NCBI RefSeq assembly: GCF_007747215.1
Contig: NZ_CP036273.1
Coordinates: 2,154,322 to 2,218,321 of the forward strand
DNA from: Urbifossiella limnaea
Lineage (GTDB): Bacteria > Planctomycetota > Planctomycetia > Gemmatales > Gemmataceae
Direction of reading: 5' to 3'
Length of the DNA: 64,000 nt
Each line of letters begins with the position of its first letter. Position 1 is the stretch's first letter. A program made the translations under genes and the position numbers. The notes below the pieces were generated by a model. That model had not been told where the DNA came from. It did not search any database and saw only the letters and a program-made list of their open reading frames with translations. Positions 5,321 through 11,877 of the stretch are shown piece after piece.

Positions 5321-5668
5321 ATGATGACCGTGCCTGATACTCATCTCGTCGAACGCTGGCGAACGACCTTCGCCATGTGGCGCAGTTCCGGCCTCTCGGT
5401 GGCCGCGTTCTGCCGCTCGCGTGAACTCAACCTGTCGAGCTTCTACCGCTGGCGGAAGATCCTCGACGATCTCGACCGGCCGTCCACGACCCGGCCCCGA
5501 TCCGAACCCGACCCCCTGCCGATTCCGTCCTTCGTGCCCATCCGCGTGATCCCCGATGCCGTCATCGAGGTGATCCTTCCCTCCGGTGTCCAACTCCGCG
5601 TGCCACTGTCCGCTGATGCCCGGCAACTGGCCTACTTGGTTCAGGCCCTGGGAGCGACACCATGCTGA
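5321..5668 (+). CDS. tnpA: IS66 family accessory protein TnpA
   Basis: The 115-residue product has the typical IS66 TnpA layout. An N-terminal helix-turn-helix of transposase_8 type (HLVERWRTTFAMWRSSGLSVAAFCRSRELNLSSFYRWRK, residues ~8-47) is followed by a short beta-rich tail (IEVILPSGVQLRVPL). It is the first gene inside the left end and helps TnpC recognise or process transposon ends. The neighbouring tnpB begins just before its stop codon, with the overlap usual for this family. Confidence 0.85.
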   Translation: MMTVPDTHLVERWRTTFAMWRSSGLSVAAFCRSRELNLSSFYRWRKILDDLDRPSTTRPRSEPDPLPIPSFVPIRVIPDAVIEVILPSGVQLRVPLSADARQLAYLVQALGATPC

Positions 5669-5989
5669 CCATGGGCACCACCGGCGTCATCTACGTCGCC
5701 GTCGAGCCGCAAGATGCGGCGCAAGGGGATTGACGGACTCGCGGGCGTCGTCCGCACCACACTCGGACGCGATCCCGCTTCCGGCGACCTCTTCGTCTTC
5801 AAGAACCGACGCGGCGACAAGCTCAAGATCCTCGCCTGGATGGGCGATGGGTTCGCCCTGTACCTGCGCCGGCTCGAAAAGGGAACCTTCGCCTTCCCCA
5901 CCGCCACGACCACGCAACTGGCCATGATCTTGGGGGGCGTCGAGTGGGCCAACACCCGCACCCGCACCCGGTTCCAGAAACCGGTGTAA
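5662..5989 (+). pseudogene. tnpB: IS66 family accessory protein TnpB, frameshifted
   Basis: The expected start overlaps the tnpA end (ATG 5662, MLTMGTTGVIYVAVEPQDA). That frame ends after 23 codons. The conserved body MRRKGIDGLAGVVRTTLG, then LFVFKNRRGDKLKIL and RRLEKGTFAFP, is in the +1 frame from an ATG at 5714. Family alignment implies two bases lost around 5712 (or one gained). The 91-residue body alone might be translated from 5714, but it lacks the first beta strand. It is either a pseudogene or a shifted frame. TnpB is essential for transposition in the IS66 members that have been tested, so this copy may be immobile. Confidence 0.7.
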
Positions 5990-6040
5990 TTATTCTCGAC
6001 GGACGTGATAGGTTCGGGCGCGTCGCGCGTCTTGCTTGAC

Positions 6041-6782
6041 ATGGCGGTGTCATCCGAACCCGAACTCCTCACGCCCGGCGAGCAACTCGCTCAGCAGCGC
6101 GCGGAGAACGCACGCCTCCGCGCCCAAGTCGAGGAACTCCTCACGCTGGTTGCCGAACTCCGCGGCACCGTCGAGAAGCAGCAAGACCACATCGCCAAAC
6201 TCGTGAAGATGCACTTCGGTCGCAAGAGCGAACGGATCGAAGGTCCGACCCTCTTCGACGACCTCCCCGGCGATGGGCCGGACGACCCCGCGCCGCCGCC
6301 GGTCGCGCCGGTGATTCCCGAACCGGACGTGTCGGTGCCCAAGCGGAAAGGGCACGGGCGCAAAGCGAACCCGGCGAACCTACCGCGACGACGCGAAGAG
6401 ATCGACCTGAGCGAGGCCGAGAAGGTGTGCCCCTGTTGTGCCGGGGTGCGCATCCGCATCGGCGAGACGATCCGCGAACGTCTCGATTACACCCCGTCGT
6501 CGGTCTTCGTTCGCGAGATTGCGCAGCCCACGTATGCGTGCCGAAGTTGCGAGCAGGCGGCGCGCGATCCGCAGTTCGCGGCCCCGGCGTTCCCTCCCGA
6601 ACCGGTGCCCAGGTCGGGCATCGGGGCCGGACTGCTCGCCCAGGTGATCGTGTCGAAGTGCGTCGTTCACCTGCCGCTGTACCGCCAGGAGTCGATCTTC
6701 GCGCGGCACGGTTGGCCGGTGTGTCGCACCCGCTTGTGCGATCTGGTCGCGGCGTGCGCAACGCTGTTGGATCCGGTCTACC
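6041..6782 (+). pseudogene. tnpC: IS66 transposase TnpC, 5' part (split)
   Basis: This is the N-terminal half of the DDE transposase. It has a coiled-coil leader (LAQQRAENARLRAQVEELL), the basic segment HFGRKSERIEG, a zinc-ribbon (CPCC at ~residues 126-130, CRSCEQA at ~166-172) and the start of the catalytic region (GAGLLAQVIVSKCVVHLPLYRQE). It stops at 6782, where a 7-bp duplication marks the IS21-type insertion. The reading frame continues at 11054 (LLDPVY joins to RAMIVRLKASF). ATG 6041 was preferred over 6005 because MAVSSEPELL matches the family N-terminus better. Confidence 0.88.
6776..6782. repeat. 7-bp target duplication of IS21-type element, left copy
   Basis: GTCTACC, repeated exactly at 11047-11053 on the other side of the element. 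The two copies bracket inverted ends beginning TGTCG. Confidence 0.85.
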
Positions 6783-6863
6783 TGTCGATCGCGGTTTGAA
6801 ACAGGGCCACTTTCGCGGTCGGAGGCGGGCCAGTCGGAGTTGCCGGGCGGAGCGAGCGGACGG

Positions 6864-7673
6864 TCATTTCGCGGCGGGCTTGTCGGGGCGGTGGACGCGG
6901 TAGGACTGGCCCTTCAGCTTCACGATGGTCGCGCCGTCGACGACGCGGTCCAGCAACGCCATCGCCAGCGGCGCGTCGCCGAGGTACTCGGCCCAGTCGC
7001 CGAAGTCGATGTTGGTGATCAGGGCGGTGGAACGCTGCTGGCTGCGGGCGTCGATGATCTTGTACCACAGGCTCGCCGCCTGCGGGCAGAGGCTGCGTTC
7101 GATGCGGTCGAAGCCGAACTCGTCGATGATCAACAGCGGGAAGCGGGCGTAGAAGCGGACGCGGTCGTGGATGGTCTGATCGGCCATCGCGGCGGTGAGG
7201 TCTTCGAGGAGGTCGCCGCTGGTGGTGTAGTAGACCGCCTGTTCGAGCAGGCACGCGGCCAGGCCGATGCTCTGGATGAGCCGACTCTTCCCGAGCCCCG
7301 ACTGCCCGACGAAGACGACGTTCTGCTTGCGGCGGATGAAGTCGCCCTGGGCCAGGGCCTCGATCTGCACGCGGGGGATGGCGGGGTTGAAGGTCCAGTC
7401 GAAGGTGGACAGCGGCAGGGCTTCGCGGAAGCGGGCCTGCTGGACGAGTCGCTCGATGCGACGCTCGCGGCGGAGTCCGGCCTGGTCGGCGAGCAAGCGG
7501 TGCAGGAAGTCGAGGTGCGAGAGGCCGGCATCCTGCGCCTGCTGCAAGGCCGCGTCGAGTTGCTCGGCGGTCACGGGGATGCGCAGGGTCGCGAAGTCGG
7601 CGAGGATCTGGTCACGCCGGCCCGGGGTCGCGGCCGGCGTCGTCTTCGGGGCGGTCTTCGGGCGGGGTGTCAT
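6864..7673 (-). CDS. istB: IS21 helper ATPase IstB
   Basis: The 269-residue AAA+ protein has Walker A in FVGQSGLGKSRL (about residues 108-119), Walker B in LLIIDEFGFD (about 173-182) and sensor-like TALITNIDFGDW. IstB forms ATP-dependent rings that select target DNA and activate the IstA integrase. The upstream-open frame starts at 7892, but ATG 7673 gives the family N-terminus and a 62-nt overlap with istA, which is usual in IS21. The final residues HRPDKPAAK are the normal basic tail. Confidence 0.92.
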   Translation of the reverse strand: MTPRPKTAPKTTPAATPGRRDQILADFATLRIPVTAEQLDAALQQAQDAGLSHLDFLHRLLADQAGLRRERRIERLVQQARFREALPLSTFDWTFNPAIPRVQIEALAQGDFIRRKQNVVFVGQSGLGKSRLIQSIGLAACLLEQAVYYTTSGDLLEDLTAAMADQTIHDRVRFYARFPLLIIDEFGFDRIERSLCPQAASLWYKIIDARSQQRSTALITNIDFGDWAEYLGDAPLAMALLDRVVDGATIVKLKGQSYRVHRPDKPAAK

Positions 7674-9192
7674 CGCCGGGTTCCTCGGGCTCGTCGGACG
7701 CGAGCAGGTGTTGATAGTCGCGGGTGGACCGCGGCCCGATGACATCGTCGCGCAGGGTGGGATCGAGCGAATCGCGGTGGAGTTCGGCGAGTTCGTCGAG
7801 CCGGGGCCGGGGTCGAGCCCGGGCGGCGAGGATGCGGCGGACGGCGGCGAGCGAGAAGGCGCCGAAGCGGACGGCGCGGTCGAGGGCGGCACGCACGTCG
7901 TCCCGCGTGTACTGCGCGGCCAGGGCGAGCAGGTGCTGGGCCTGCAACTTGCCCTGGATCTGCCGGGCGAGCAGGCCGTCGAGGAACGCGGTGCCGACCG
8001 GGCCGAGGTCCGCGAAGCGTTGCCGCAACAGTCGCGTCCGCTCCTCGGGATCGCCGGTCGGATGATGGCTCTGGATCGACTGCCGCACGCCGCTGCGCGT
8101 GGCCGGCACCAGGGGGTGGCGGGCGACCTCCTCCAGACCGACCGAGTAGACGATGACCTCGCCGTCGGCGATGCGGACCGGCAGGACCTGGCCGATGAAC
8201 GACCACGGCACCGAGTAGTGGTTCAATCGGTGCGTGAGGAAGCCCTCGACGTTGACGTGGCGATAGACCACCAGAGCGGTGTCGAAGTCGCGGGTGGGGA
8301 GCGGCAGCAGGTGCGGACGTTCGCGCTCGTGGCGGTCGCGCGGCGACTCCTGGAAGTCGCGCATCACGTGCACATCGGCGACGGTCGCCAGCCACTCGGC
8401 CGTGACTTCGTTGAGGTGGTCGAGCGTCTCGAAGGTGCGGCCGTTGAGCAAACTCATTTCGACGTAGTGGAATTTCCTCTCGACCTTCCCCTTCGTTTGG
8501 GGCCGTCGCACGCGGCAGGCCCGGGGTCGGAAGCCGTAGTGCGTGGCGAAGGCCAGGAACTTCGGGTTGTACAGCGGCCCCTCGGCGTCGTGCCGCAACA
8601 CCACCGCCTTGAAGTTGTCGTACAGGCACGTGCGGGCGATGCCGCCGAGGTGGCGGAAGGCGTTCGCGTGCTCGCGGAGCGTGGTCGGCAGGTCCGTCGA
8701 CTCGACGAAGCGGAGGTACTGGCGGCGGGAGTAGCCGAGCAGGTAGCTGAACAGGTAGACGCGGCGGCGGCCTTCGCGGGTGAAGTCGAGGTCGTAGACG
8801 CCGTGGTCCATCTGGGCCTGGTCGCCCGGTCCCGTCTCGAAGCGCGGCACGGGCGGCGGCGTGGCCCGCGGACGGAGTCGCTTCACCCGCAGGCGGACGA
8901 TCGTGTACCCGCCCGCGAAGCCGCGTGCCCGCAACTCCTGCAGGGCGCGTTCCACGGTCAGGTTCGGGTAGCGGTCGAGCAGTTCCTTCAGGATCGGCTC
9001 GTACGCGTCGAGGCGACTGCCGCGACGCGGCGGCGGATCGCCGGGACCGGTCGAGCCCGTGCGGGCGGCTTCGACCCGGGCCAGCACGCGATCGACGGTG
9101 CCGCGTGAGATCCCCAGCGAACGCGCGATCGACCGCGCCGACGCGCCCTGCTGATGCCGCTGCACGATCTCCAGCCGCGTGGCCTCGTTCAT
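7612..9192 (-). CDS. istA: IS21 family transposase IstA
   Basis: The 526-residue DDE integrase-type transposase begins with an N-terminal helix-turn-helix (VQRHQQGASARSIARSLGISRGTVDRVL, residues ~8-37). The rve catalytic core follows: QAQMDHGVYDLDF gives the first Asp, CLYDNFKAVV the second, and RRPQTKGKVERKFHYVEMSLL the Glu. The C-terminal half carries the beta-barrel and helical region (HRLNHYSVPWSFIGQ). The ATG at 9192 overlaps the stop of the ParB-like gene (ATGA), so translation is probably coupled. Length and motifs are normal and no damage is seen. Confidence 0.92.
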   Translation of the reverse strand: MNEATRLEIVQRHQQGASARSIARSLGISRGTVDRVLARVEAARTGSTGPGDPPPRRGSRLDAYEPILKELLDRYPNLTVERALQELRARGFAGGYTIVRLRVKRLRPRATPPPVPRFETGPGDQAQMDHGVYDLDFTREGRRRVYLFSYLLGYSRRQYLRFVESTDLPTTLREHANAFRHLGGIARTCLYDNFKAVVLRHDAEGPLYNPKFLAFATHYGFRPRACRVRRPQTKGKVERKFHYVEMSLLNGRTFETLDHLNEVTAEWLATVADVHVMRDFQESPRDRHERERPHLLPLPTRDFDTALVVYRHVNVEGFLTHRLNHYSVPWSFIGQVLPVRIADGEVIVYSVGLEEVARHPLVPATRSGVRQSIQSHHPTGDPEERTRLLRQRFADLGPVGTAFLDGLLARQIQGKLQAQHLLALAAQYTRDDVRAALDRAVRFGAFSLAAVRRILAARARPRPRLDELAELHRDSLDPTLRDDVIGPRSTRDYQHLLASDEPEEPGDDTPPEDRPEDDAGRDPGPA

Positions 9193-10106
9193 GGCCGCCT
9201 CCCTTCCCGCAGCACTGCCGGACCGAGCACCCGTTCCGCCACGCGGCTCGCCTGATCCCCCAGGTGCAGCAGCACCGGCTCCACGATCCGACGATCGCGG
9301 TCGGCCAGTTCGCGTTCGCCCGGCGAGACGAGCCACTGCTCCAGACGGGTCAGCACGTCCGCGGCCTGGGTCAGGTGCTTGACGAGCCAGTTGCCGGCCC
9401 GGCTCAGCCGCGGGTCGCGCAGCGCCGTCGGCACGCCGTTCACCTGCCGCAACGCCTCCCGCGGCTTCGCCAGCACGAACGCCGCCTGCTCCGGGCTCGC
9501 GCCGTGAAGCAGGTCGATGACGCCGCCGACTTCCTGCGCCGTCAGCGACGCACGGCGGGTCAACGCCAGCACCGCCTCCTGGTTGCCCGCGGGCAACCGC
9601 ACCAGCTGCCGCGCCAGCGCCGGGCCGAGCAGCCCCAGCCGCAGGTCCTCCACCACCGCTTCGCTCAGCCGCTCCAGCAACGCCAGCCGCCGGCACACCC
9701 AGCTCTTGTGCTGACCCAGCAGGTGCGCCGCTTCGACCTGCGTCAACCCGTCGTCGCGGACGAGCCCCTGCACGACCCACGCTTCCTCCAGCTCCCGCGC
9801 CGCACGCTGGCCGCGATTCAGACCCAGGATCGCCGCCTTCGCCAGCGGCTCGTCCAGCTCCACCACCCGCACGCTCAGACTCGTCGATCCCGCCACCTGC
9901 CGCGCCGCCGCCAGGCGCTTGAAGCCGTCGAGCAACTCCAGGCCGTCGCCGCGGACGCACGCCACGACCGGCGACAACTGACCCCAGCGACGCAGCGAAC
10001 CGGCCATCGCCTCTTCCGCGAGCGGATCGGCCAGGCGGTAGCGGCGGTAGCGTTGACCCAGTCGGTCGAACGCCACCGGCCGCACCACGCCGTGCTCCCA
10101 GTCCAT
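9189..10106 (-). CDS. ParB/Spo0J-like protein encoded in the IS21-type element
   Basis: The 305-residue product has the ParB N-terminal domain order. The segment RRYRLADPLAEEAMAGSLRRWGQLSPVVACVRGDGLELLDGFKRLAAARQ covers the substrate- and CTP-binding region, and the central helix-turn-helix is VEAAHLLGQHKSWVCRRLALLERLSEAVVEDL (about residues 125-155). The typical GERRxRA box is replaced by DGFKRLAAARQ. It overlaps istA by 4 nt and shares its promoter side. A role in target choice, element regulation or replicon partition-like DNA sliding is inference. ParB-like genes are not part of the classical two-gene IS21 layout. Confidence 0.8.
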   Translation of the reverse strand: MDWEHGVVRPVAFDRLGQRYRRYRLADPLAEEAMAGSLRRWGQLSPVVACVRGDGLELLDGFKRLAAARQVAGSTSLSVRVVELDEPLAKAAILGLNRGQRAARELEEAWVVQGLVRDDGLTQVEAAHLLGQHKSWVCRRLALLERLSEAVVEDLRLGLLGPALARQLVRLPAGNQEAVLALTRRASLTAQEVGGVIDLLHGASPEQAAFVLAKPREALRQVNGVPTALRDPRLSRAGNWLVKHLTQAADVLTRLEQWLVSPGERELADRDRRIVEPVLLHLGDQASRVAERVLGPAVLREGRRP

Positions 10107-10248
10107 GCGCGGACCCTCCCCGAACGACCCCGCCCGAAGAACGGAAGCGGACGGACGGAAGGGTCTTCCGACGCGTCCGCTCCTTCCTCCGTGGGGTCGT
10201 GGGACTGTAGACGCCGGGTGAAGTCGACTCCAGGGCCAAAGACGTGAC

Positions 10249-10791
10249 TCACGACGTGTCCGGCGAGTGCCAACGCCCCGTCACTCGACGCGGCCGCCCA
10301 CGCCGGCGACGCCAGCGCCAGCGCGATTCCCGATCCAGGACGCGACGTAACGCCAGCCGGCACGCCACACTGCAGAAGCGACGGCTCGAACCCTCGGACC
10401 GGACCGCGAACTCCACGTGGCACCCCGGCCGATGACACGAGCACGCCTCAAAATCGTCCGGGATTTCCGCCGGGCGCTGGCCCTCGCACGCCGCCGTGGT
10501 CGCCGTCACAACAACGGCAGGTTCCATCGCCGCCGCTCGCTCCTGTCGTCGCAGACGATACCGAACGTGCTGCGCCCGCCGCCGCTCCCGACCCGACTCG
10601 CTCACCCGATACCGACGACTGGCCCGCCACCGCCGCCACTGCTGCGCCGACCGCGCACACGCCTCGCGGCAGTACCGCGACTGCGGACGCGACGGCACAA
10701 ACGCCTGCTCGCACCCCTTGAGCAGGCACCGGCGAACCCGAGAACGACGCCCCGGCTCTGGCCGAAGCGGTGTCGAACAGTGAAATGACAC
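10249..10791 (-). CDS. Zinc-finger-like basic protein of the IS21-type element
   Basis: The 180-residue protein has two cysteine clusters: CLLKGCEQAF with YCREAC (residues ~22-47), and CSCHRPGCHVEF with FCSVACRLALR (residues ~117-150). An extremely Arg-rich linker (ASRRYRVSESGRERRRAQH) separates them. Each cluster looks like a CxxxxC-x10-14-CxxxC zinc-binding knuckle, and the composition suggests DNA or RNA binding. It is the first gene inside the right end, starts at a GTG, and lies in one orientation with the ParB-like gene and istAB. No known name was recognised. Confidence 0.65.
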   Translation of the reverse strand: MSFHCSTPLRPEPGRRSRVRRCLLKGCEQAFVPSRPQSRYCREACARSAQQWRRWRASRRYRVSESGRERRRAQHVRYRLRRQERAAAMEPAVVVTATTAACEGQRPAEIPDDFEACSCHRPGCHVEFAVRSEGSSRRFCSVACRLALRRVLDRESRWRWRRRRGRPRRVTGRWHSPDTS

Positions 10792-10826
10792 GGGCCTTCA
10801 GGGAGGCTTGTCCCCGACGGTCAAGT

Positions 10827-10856
10827 CTCGGAGCCAGGTTGACGCCTGGCTCCGAG
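10827..10856. promoter_or_regulatory. Strong hairpin upstream of the IS21-element operon
   Basis: Perfect 12-bp stem CTCGGAGCCAGG / CCTGGCTCCGAG with a 6-nt loop. It lies between the right terminal repeats and the first gene, so it could block transcription entering the element from outside or be a protein-binding site. Confidence 0.5.
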
Positions 10857-11046
10857 GCGACTTCTTGCGGGTGGATCCAGTTCACATCACGAAGTGCTTC
10901 CAGACTACCACACCGCCCGGCCCACCCGTCCCCGCGAACGACACGCCCACTCCCGCGCCCTGGCTCGGGCCACACCGCGATCAGCCGAGCGCGCCCTGGC
11001 CCGGGCCACACCGCGAAAATGGCCCGGTCTTAAGCCGCTGCCGACA

Positions 11047-11053
11047 GTCTACC
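11047..11053. repeat. 7-bp target duplication of IS21-type element, right copy
   Basis: GTCTACC, identical to the left copy at 6776-6782. Confidence 0.85.
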
Positions 11054-11877
11054 GGGCCATGATCGTGCGGCTGAAGGCGTCGTTCGCGATCCACACCGAC
11101 GAGAGCCCGGTCAGACTCCTGCAACCCCGACGCACCGCGTATGCCTGGCTGTACCTCGGTGACGCGGCCAACCCGTACACGCTGTTCGACTTCACGCCCG
11201 GTCGCGGCGAAGAGTACCCCGCTGCGTTCCTGAGTGGGTACGCGGGGTTCGTGCATGCCGACGGCTACGCCGGGTACAATCCCATCCACGGATCCGGCTC
11301 GCGACATTTGGGCTGCTGGGCTCACGTGCGACGCAAGTTCGTGGAAGCCCGGACGAACAACGCGGCCAAGGCGAGCGAAGCCCTGGCGTACATCCGCACG
11401 CTCTACGCCGTCGAACAGGAGATCCGTGACGAGAAGCTTACGGGCGATGCCGTGGTGTCGCGGCGGCAAACGCGAGCCGGGCCGATCCTGCGGAAGTTGG
11501 GTGCGTGGTTGGACGCGGAACAACGCACGGCGTTGCCGAAAAGCCCCTTCGGCCAGGCCGTGTCGTATGCGCTCAATCTGTGGCCGACGCTGGGCCGGTA
11601 TCTGAACGATGCCCGGTTCACCATCGATAACAACGTGGCCGAACGCACGGTGCGACCGCTGGCGATCGGACGGAAGAACTGGCTGTTCGTGGGCGGTGAC
11701 GGTGGGCTGACGAGTGCCTCGGTGCTGATGAGCCTGTGCGCATCGGCGAAGAGGCATACGTTGGACCCATGGGCGTACCTCACCGACGTGTTGACGCAAC
11801 TGACCGCCAAACCGGCCGACGTGACGCATCTGTTGCCCGACGCCTGGGCCAAGCAGCACCTGCCCGCCAGCCACTGA
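11054..11877 (+). pseudogene. tnpC: IS66 transposase TnpC, 3' part (split)
   Basis: This is the C-terminal half of the IS66 DDE transposase. FAIHTDESPVRLL gives the first catalytic Asp, GFVHADGYAGYN the second, and RFTIDNNVAERTVRPLAIGRKNWLFVGGDGG carries the catalytic Glu and the IS66 signature. The C-terminal helical tail ends in PDAWAKQHLPASH, normal for the family. The plus-strand frame is open further upstream only because it reads through IS21-element sequence. Joined to 6041-6782 it would make about 520 residues, the expected TnpC length. Confidence 0.9.

Follow-up and report, generated by a model that had tools for sequence, protein, structure and literature searches.

A recently mobile four-gene IS21-family insertion sequence carrying a zinc-finger gene and a ParB-like gene that overlaps istA

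Positions 6783 to 11046 of a 64,000-nt stretch of the Urbifossiella limnaea genome (contig NZ_CP036273.1; the whole stretch is hereafter referred to as the window) are an IS21-family insertion sequence that is mobile and carries two extra genes, one encoding a ParB-like protein and one a zinc-finger protein. Elements with ParB next to istA are known here from three or more bacterial phyla. We propose, at roughly even confidence, that the ParB-like and zinc-finger proteins act as transposition regulators in a deep IS21 lineage rather than as a partition system.

The element is 4264 bp (4.26 kb) long, with the terminal dinucleotides TG...CA. Its left end, from 6783, reads TGTCGATCGCGG, and its right end, closing at 11046, reads CCGCTGCCGACA. 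Aligned as inverted repeats, the ends match at 30 of their first 40 bases, compared to a mean of 11 and a maximum of 21 for shuffles, and they contain sub-terminal repeats spaced about 24 bp apart. All four genes are on the minus strand, in the order zinc finger, ParB-like, istA, istB, and the open reading frames between 6783 and 11046 include no further gene and no parA. The IstA protein scores 279.8 bits against NCBIfam NF033546 (cut-off 160) and IstB 207.1 bits against NF038214 (cut-off 200); istB lies downstream of istA and starts inside its end. A preliminary description had proposed clear ends with a 7-bp duplication, an intact istAB pair of IS21 type, and two accessory genes sharing its operon, one for a zinc-finger protein and one ParB-like, the latter overlapping istA by 4 nt. 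All of this proved correct: the ends are exact, GTCTACC stands on both sides, both ist genes are intact and above their cut-offs, and the overlap reads ATGA. The description further suggested that the extras may govern target choice, copy number or partition-like DNA sliding, roles that stand as candidates.

Table 1. Features of the element, in window coordinates (TSD, target-site duplication)
Feature	Position	Strand	Remarks
TSD, left copy	6776..6782		GTCTACC
Left terminal inverted repeat	6783..6832	+	two sub-terminal repeats; 30/40 match to right end
Left sub-terminal repeats	begin near 6790 and 6814		CGCGGT...GGGCC; spacing about 24 bp
istB, AAA+ helper ATPase, 269 aa	6864..7673	-	NF038214; Pfam IstB_IS21 4e-52
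istA, DDE transposase, 526 aa	7612..9192	-	NF033546; rve and Mu-transpos_C_2 domains
ParB/Noc/KorB-like DNA-binding protein gene (predicted), 305 aa	9189..10106	-	HTH_ParB; Spo0J; Foldseek
Zinc-finger protein gene, 180 aa	10249..10791	-	two Cys4 motifs; basic arginine-rich segments
Palindrome CTCGGAGCCAGG-N6-CCTGGCTCCGAG	10827..10856		upstream of zinc-finger gene
Right terminal inverted repeat	10962..11046	-	three sub-terminal repeats
TSD, right copy	11047..11053		GTCTACC

The insertion splits an IS66 tnpC gene, which becomes an open frame of 538 aa when the two flanks are rejoined with a single GTCTACC. This IS66-type target element (tnpA/tnpB/tnpC) occupies 5321-6775 and 11047-11877 of the window.

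The ParB-like gene is directly upstream of istA. Its product reaches 31.9 bits against Pfam HTH_ParB (cut-off 22.6) and matches Spo0J (1vz0) at E=7e-9 in phmmer. With a structure model of moderate confidence (pLDDT 62), built on an alignment of window and L027 sequences only, the top Foldseek matches were all Noc, ParB or KorB at probability 1.00, with low whole-chain TM-scores; the KorB returned by this search is a transcriptional repressor. Sequence and modeled fold together place the protein in the ParB/Noc/KorB superfamily. At residues 60-64 the canonical CTP motif GERR is replaced by DGFKR, and DG-x-x-R is invariant in an alignment of 11 IS-borne ParBs, as are P46, D60, G61, R64, W136 and R140 among others; of these, P46, G61 and R64 fall in the nucleotide-binding region, where N97 is also kept in most sequences. 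Against the curated partition model parB_part (TIGR00180), the protein scores 27.6 bits, below the cut-off of 58.45. Because the CTP motif differs and the partition model is not reached, we refer to the protein as ParB-like and place it outside the partition-protein family. No close ParB relatives turned up in phages or IMG/VR, nor, for the ParB query P0002, in plasmids. The chromosomal ParBs that P0002 matched (L032, L035-L041, L043) were set aside, as their surroundings are those of ordinary chromosomal genes and include no neighbouring IstA.

The zinc-finger ORF has an uncertain start at a GTG codon. Its Cys4 motifs are C22/C27/C41/C45 and C119/C124/C140/C144, the first of which is kept in eight relatives. 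No Pfam model reached its cut-off with this protein, the best being zf-CGNR (E=0.02), and the predicted structure is of low confidence (pLDDT 53).

The host genome holds four copies of the element: the window copy and three others (L002, L003 and L004), which are 98% identical to it. L002 and L003 are identical across the entire 4264 bp and have different TSDs, from which it follows that the element moved recently as a four-gene unit. L004 differs from these two by indels only, which disrupt both its zf and its istA. The window copy has approximately 70 positions differing from the other copies, most within istA. We note that these substitutions cluster at 8317-8670, a pattern such as gene conversion involving a diverged copy would leave. 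The TSDs of the three other copies are TCCTGGT, ATCCTGGC and TGGGAG, such that all four are different and range from 6 to 8 bp. Based on gene names read from translations, the insertion sites are the IS66 tnpC, a YD-repeat gene, a nuclease-like gene and one unclear site. Site-specific targeting was considered and dropped, as the four flanks have nothing obvious in common beyond TSD length. Across 95 genomes of the host family, intact copies are present in the window genome only; one genome (G711) has a relic in which an ATGA overlap links a ParB C-terminus to istA, and another (G757) has a copy cut by a contig end. This restricted occurrence, together with a match in Chloroflexota, suggests horizontal arrival.

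The Chloroflexota match came from a single named-genome scan, in which a groundwater MAG (L027) showed the same four-gene order, ZF-ParB-istA-istB. Its ParB and istA are each 74-75% identical to those of the window and its zinc finger 55%, and its terminal repeats match the window ends at 45/60 and 40/60 bases. No matching TSD accompanies this copy, whose flanks may be rearranged. The preliminary description would have been refuted by extra genes not conserved among copies, and had pointed to four-gene elements with the same ends as a check; the genes are kept in all four host copies and in relatives from other phyla, and one such element is that of the Chloroflexota MAG.

Diverged ParB-bearing versions are present in roughly ten further genomes from the phylum of the host, in which a ParB profile search covered 392 genomes. 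In this search the IS-type ParBs scored at least 125 bits and chromosomal ParBs below 100 bits, a gap that is partly expected because most high scorers, though not G306 and G037, were used in building the profile. Where the contig allows, ParB is directly upstream of istA-istB (L028, in which istA is cut short, L029, L031, L033, L042, L078 and L079), and several elements have parB and istA overlapping by a few nucleotides. Three further ParB-bearing elements (L115, L121 and L123) were reached through istA. On the Desulforapulum plasmid pHRM2a (Thermodesulfobacteriota; L143 3441-7661), a short gene comes first, followed by ParB, IstA and IstB, and the annotation calls this ParB a chromosome partitioning protein. 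Beyond IstB the plasmid has a CHC2 zinc-finger gene. At one other locus (L034 5358-8261), zinc-finger and ParB-like genes of this type adjoin an IS481-like DDE transposase fragment instead of istA. Among the open-licence literature we found no papers that connect IS21 with accessory genes of the ParB or zinc-finger kind.

The relatives, a sample biased by an istA profile built from ParB-bearing elements, differ in their accessory genes. ParB occurs with a zinc finger, with a zinc finger and a winged helix, or with a winged helix and no recognisable zinc finger (L042, L078). Zinc finger and winged helix without ParB are found in L114, and a zinc finger alone in L117-L120 and, in Pseudomonadota, L154 and L155; plain two-gene elements are also present. 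The winged-helix label is a reading of the sequence and not a domain match. This gene encodes about 105-120 aa (L078 6392-6733, L042 1551-1871, L029 6815-7126 and L114 1234-1581), and at three of the four loci it overlaps or abuts the ParB start. We also note that the plasmid annotation misses the Pseudomonadota zinc-finger ORFs before istA (L154 3501-3920, L155 3501-3905) or puts them on the wrong strand, and that a small ORF comes after istB there.

In the IstA tree the ParB bearers fall into three groups, and forcing them into one is not rejected (p-AU 0.31). A single ancient ParB acquisition is possible. Between the window and L027, dN/dS (Nei-Gojobori) is about 0.42 for zf, 0.31 for parB, 0.22 for istA and 0.23 for istB, and the values for zf and parB indicate that both extra genes encode constrained proteins.

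The palindrome upstream of the zinc-finger gene has 12-bp arms, is conserved in the Chloroflexota copy and is confined, in the host genome, to the four element copies; L079 has a similar one. We considered it as a ParB operator and abandoned this idea, since two-gene IS21 controls (L135-L138, 37-50 bp before istA) and the zinc-finger-only element L118 (before its first gene) have comparable or stronger palindromes. Its presence in the two-gene controls points to a wider IS21 feature, and with such palindromes in the controls we found no parS-like site specific to ParB-bearing elements. Nor is the sequence at 10827-10856 a classical intrinsic terminator. The palindromes of L135-L138, found in 4/6 two-gene IS21 elements tested, are perfect, with arms of 11-20 bp, and may form a hairpin that limits transcriptional read-through or else serve in regulation.

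In the proposed reading, IstA (DDE transposase) and IstB (AAA+ helper) would move the element via the usual IS21 route. The ParB-like protein would be made just before IstA, translationally coupled to it, and would most likely bind DNA of the element or nearby as a KorB/Noc-like dimer. Together with the zinc-finger protein, it may tune operon expression, assembly of the IstA-IstB complex, or both. From the fold, the position of the gene and its coupling to istA, we infer that the protein binds DNA and plays a part in regulation or in a nucleoprotein assembly. Several results argue for regulation: four copies, each with a TSD of its own and two of which are identical from end to end; the same genes and ends in Chloroflexota; ParB beside istA in diverged elements of the phylum and on the Thermodesulfobacteriota plasmid; the clear score gap to chromosomal ParBs; purifying selection on parB and zf; the recurrent overlaps; and fold matches to ParB, Noc and KorB. 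Counting against it, palindromes comparable to the upstream one are also found in elements without ParB, and some relatives drop ParB yet keep the zinc finger, alone or with the winged helix. The missing ParB in these relatives implies that even within this lineage not every element needs it. Two-gene IS21 elements are able to transpose with neither a ParB-like nor a zinc-finger gene, so the extras are unnecessary for IS21 chemistry in general.

The ParB-like protein could instead select targets or confer target immunity, acting as a CTP-dependent clamp that steers IstB-IstA to or away from sites. The superfamily fold and the conserved P46, G61, R64 and N97 would suit such a clamp, as would the reported immunity of IS21 to repeated transposition, the mechanism of which is unknown (PMC11208146). 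However, DGFKR stands in place of GERR, the four insertions are in unrelated places sharing only TSD length, and no ParB-specific parS-like site emerged, and we regard this role as rather unlikely. That a ParB-type nucleotide-switch clamp has been recruited as a dedicated IS transposition factor, marking DNA for or against IstB-IstA, we regard as quite improbable. We also regard it as rather unlikely that the zinc-finger protein is the main IstA partner, in end binding or target tethering, with the ParB-like protein a secondary addition in a sub-lineage. Zinc-finger genes before istA are indeed more widespread than ParB, and elements with a zinc finger and no ParB occur in both the host's phylum and Pseudomonadota, but L042 and L078 combine ParB with a winged helix and have no recognisable zinc finger.

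The partition annotation on pHRM2a and membership of the ParB superfamily would also be consistent with cargo, whereby the ParB-like gene aids carrier replicons in a partition-like or host-interacting role and does not control transposition. We consider this very unlikely given an element without parA, a ParB gene that immediately precedes istA on every contig long enough to show it, usually with an overlap, and a score less than half of the parB_part cut-off. Finally, unrelated ORFs might lie beside an ordinary IS21 by chance. This has practically no probability: order, overlaps and coding constraint are the same in three phyla, both extra genes are inside the terminal repeats, and their conservation refutes a chance juxtaposition.

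IS21 is the two-gene model of ATPase-controlled transposition, and a deep lineage of the family that keeps a transposase-coupled ParB-fold protein is a candidate new control layer. If the clamp proposal were true, it would represent a principle of transposon control distinct from the MuB, TnsC and TniQ types. In addition, ParB genes called partition genes on plasmids or contigs can be insertion-sequence genes, as on pHRM2a.

Compared to the IS21 family (IS21, IS5376 and the two-gene ISMtsp8 and ISMex13), the element has the same IstA DDE core with a Mu-type C-terminal domain, IstB AAA+ helper, TG...CA ends, repeats about 23-24 bp apart and target duplications of 6-8 bp; that of IS5376 is 5 bp. 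Its sub-terminal repeats resemble the L1/L2 and R1/R2 repeats carried by the IS5376 ends (PMC10122671). Unlike these elements, it has four genes in 4.26 kb, with the ParB-like and zinc-finger genes before istA; the two-gene layout usual for IS21 is descriptive rather than defining (PMC10122671). With the ParB/Noc/KorB superfamily the ParB-like protein shares the HTH_ParB domain and the predicted ParB N-terminal fold, with Spo0J, Noc, ParB and KorB as best PDB matches. It differs in having DGFKR for GERR, no ParA and no known parS, and in that its gene is part of an insertion sequence, where it is coupled to a transposase gene. Like Mu and Tn7, the element combines a transposase and an AAA+ target-handling ATPase with extra DNA-binding proteins, here predicted; whereas no MuB/TnsC filament type or TniQ was recognised, its extra proteins have a ParB fold and zinc fingers.
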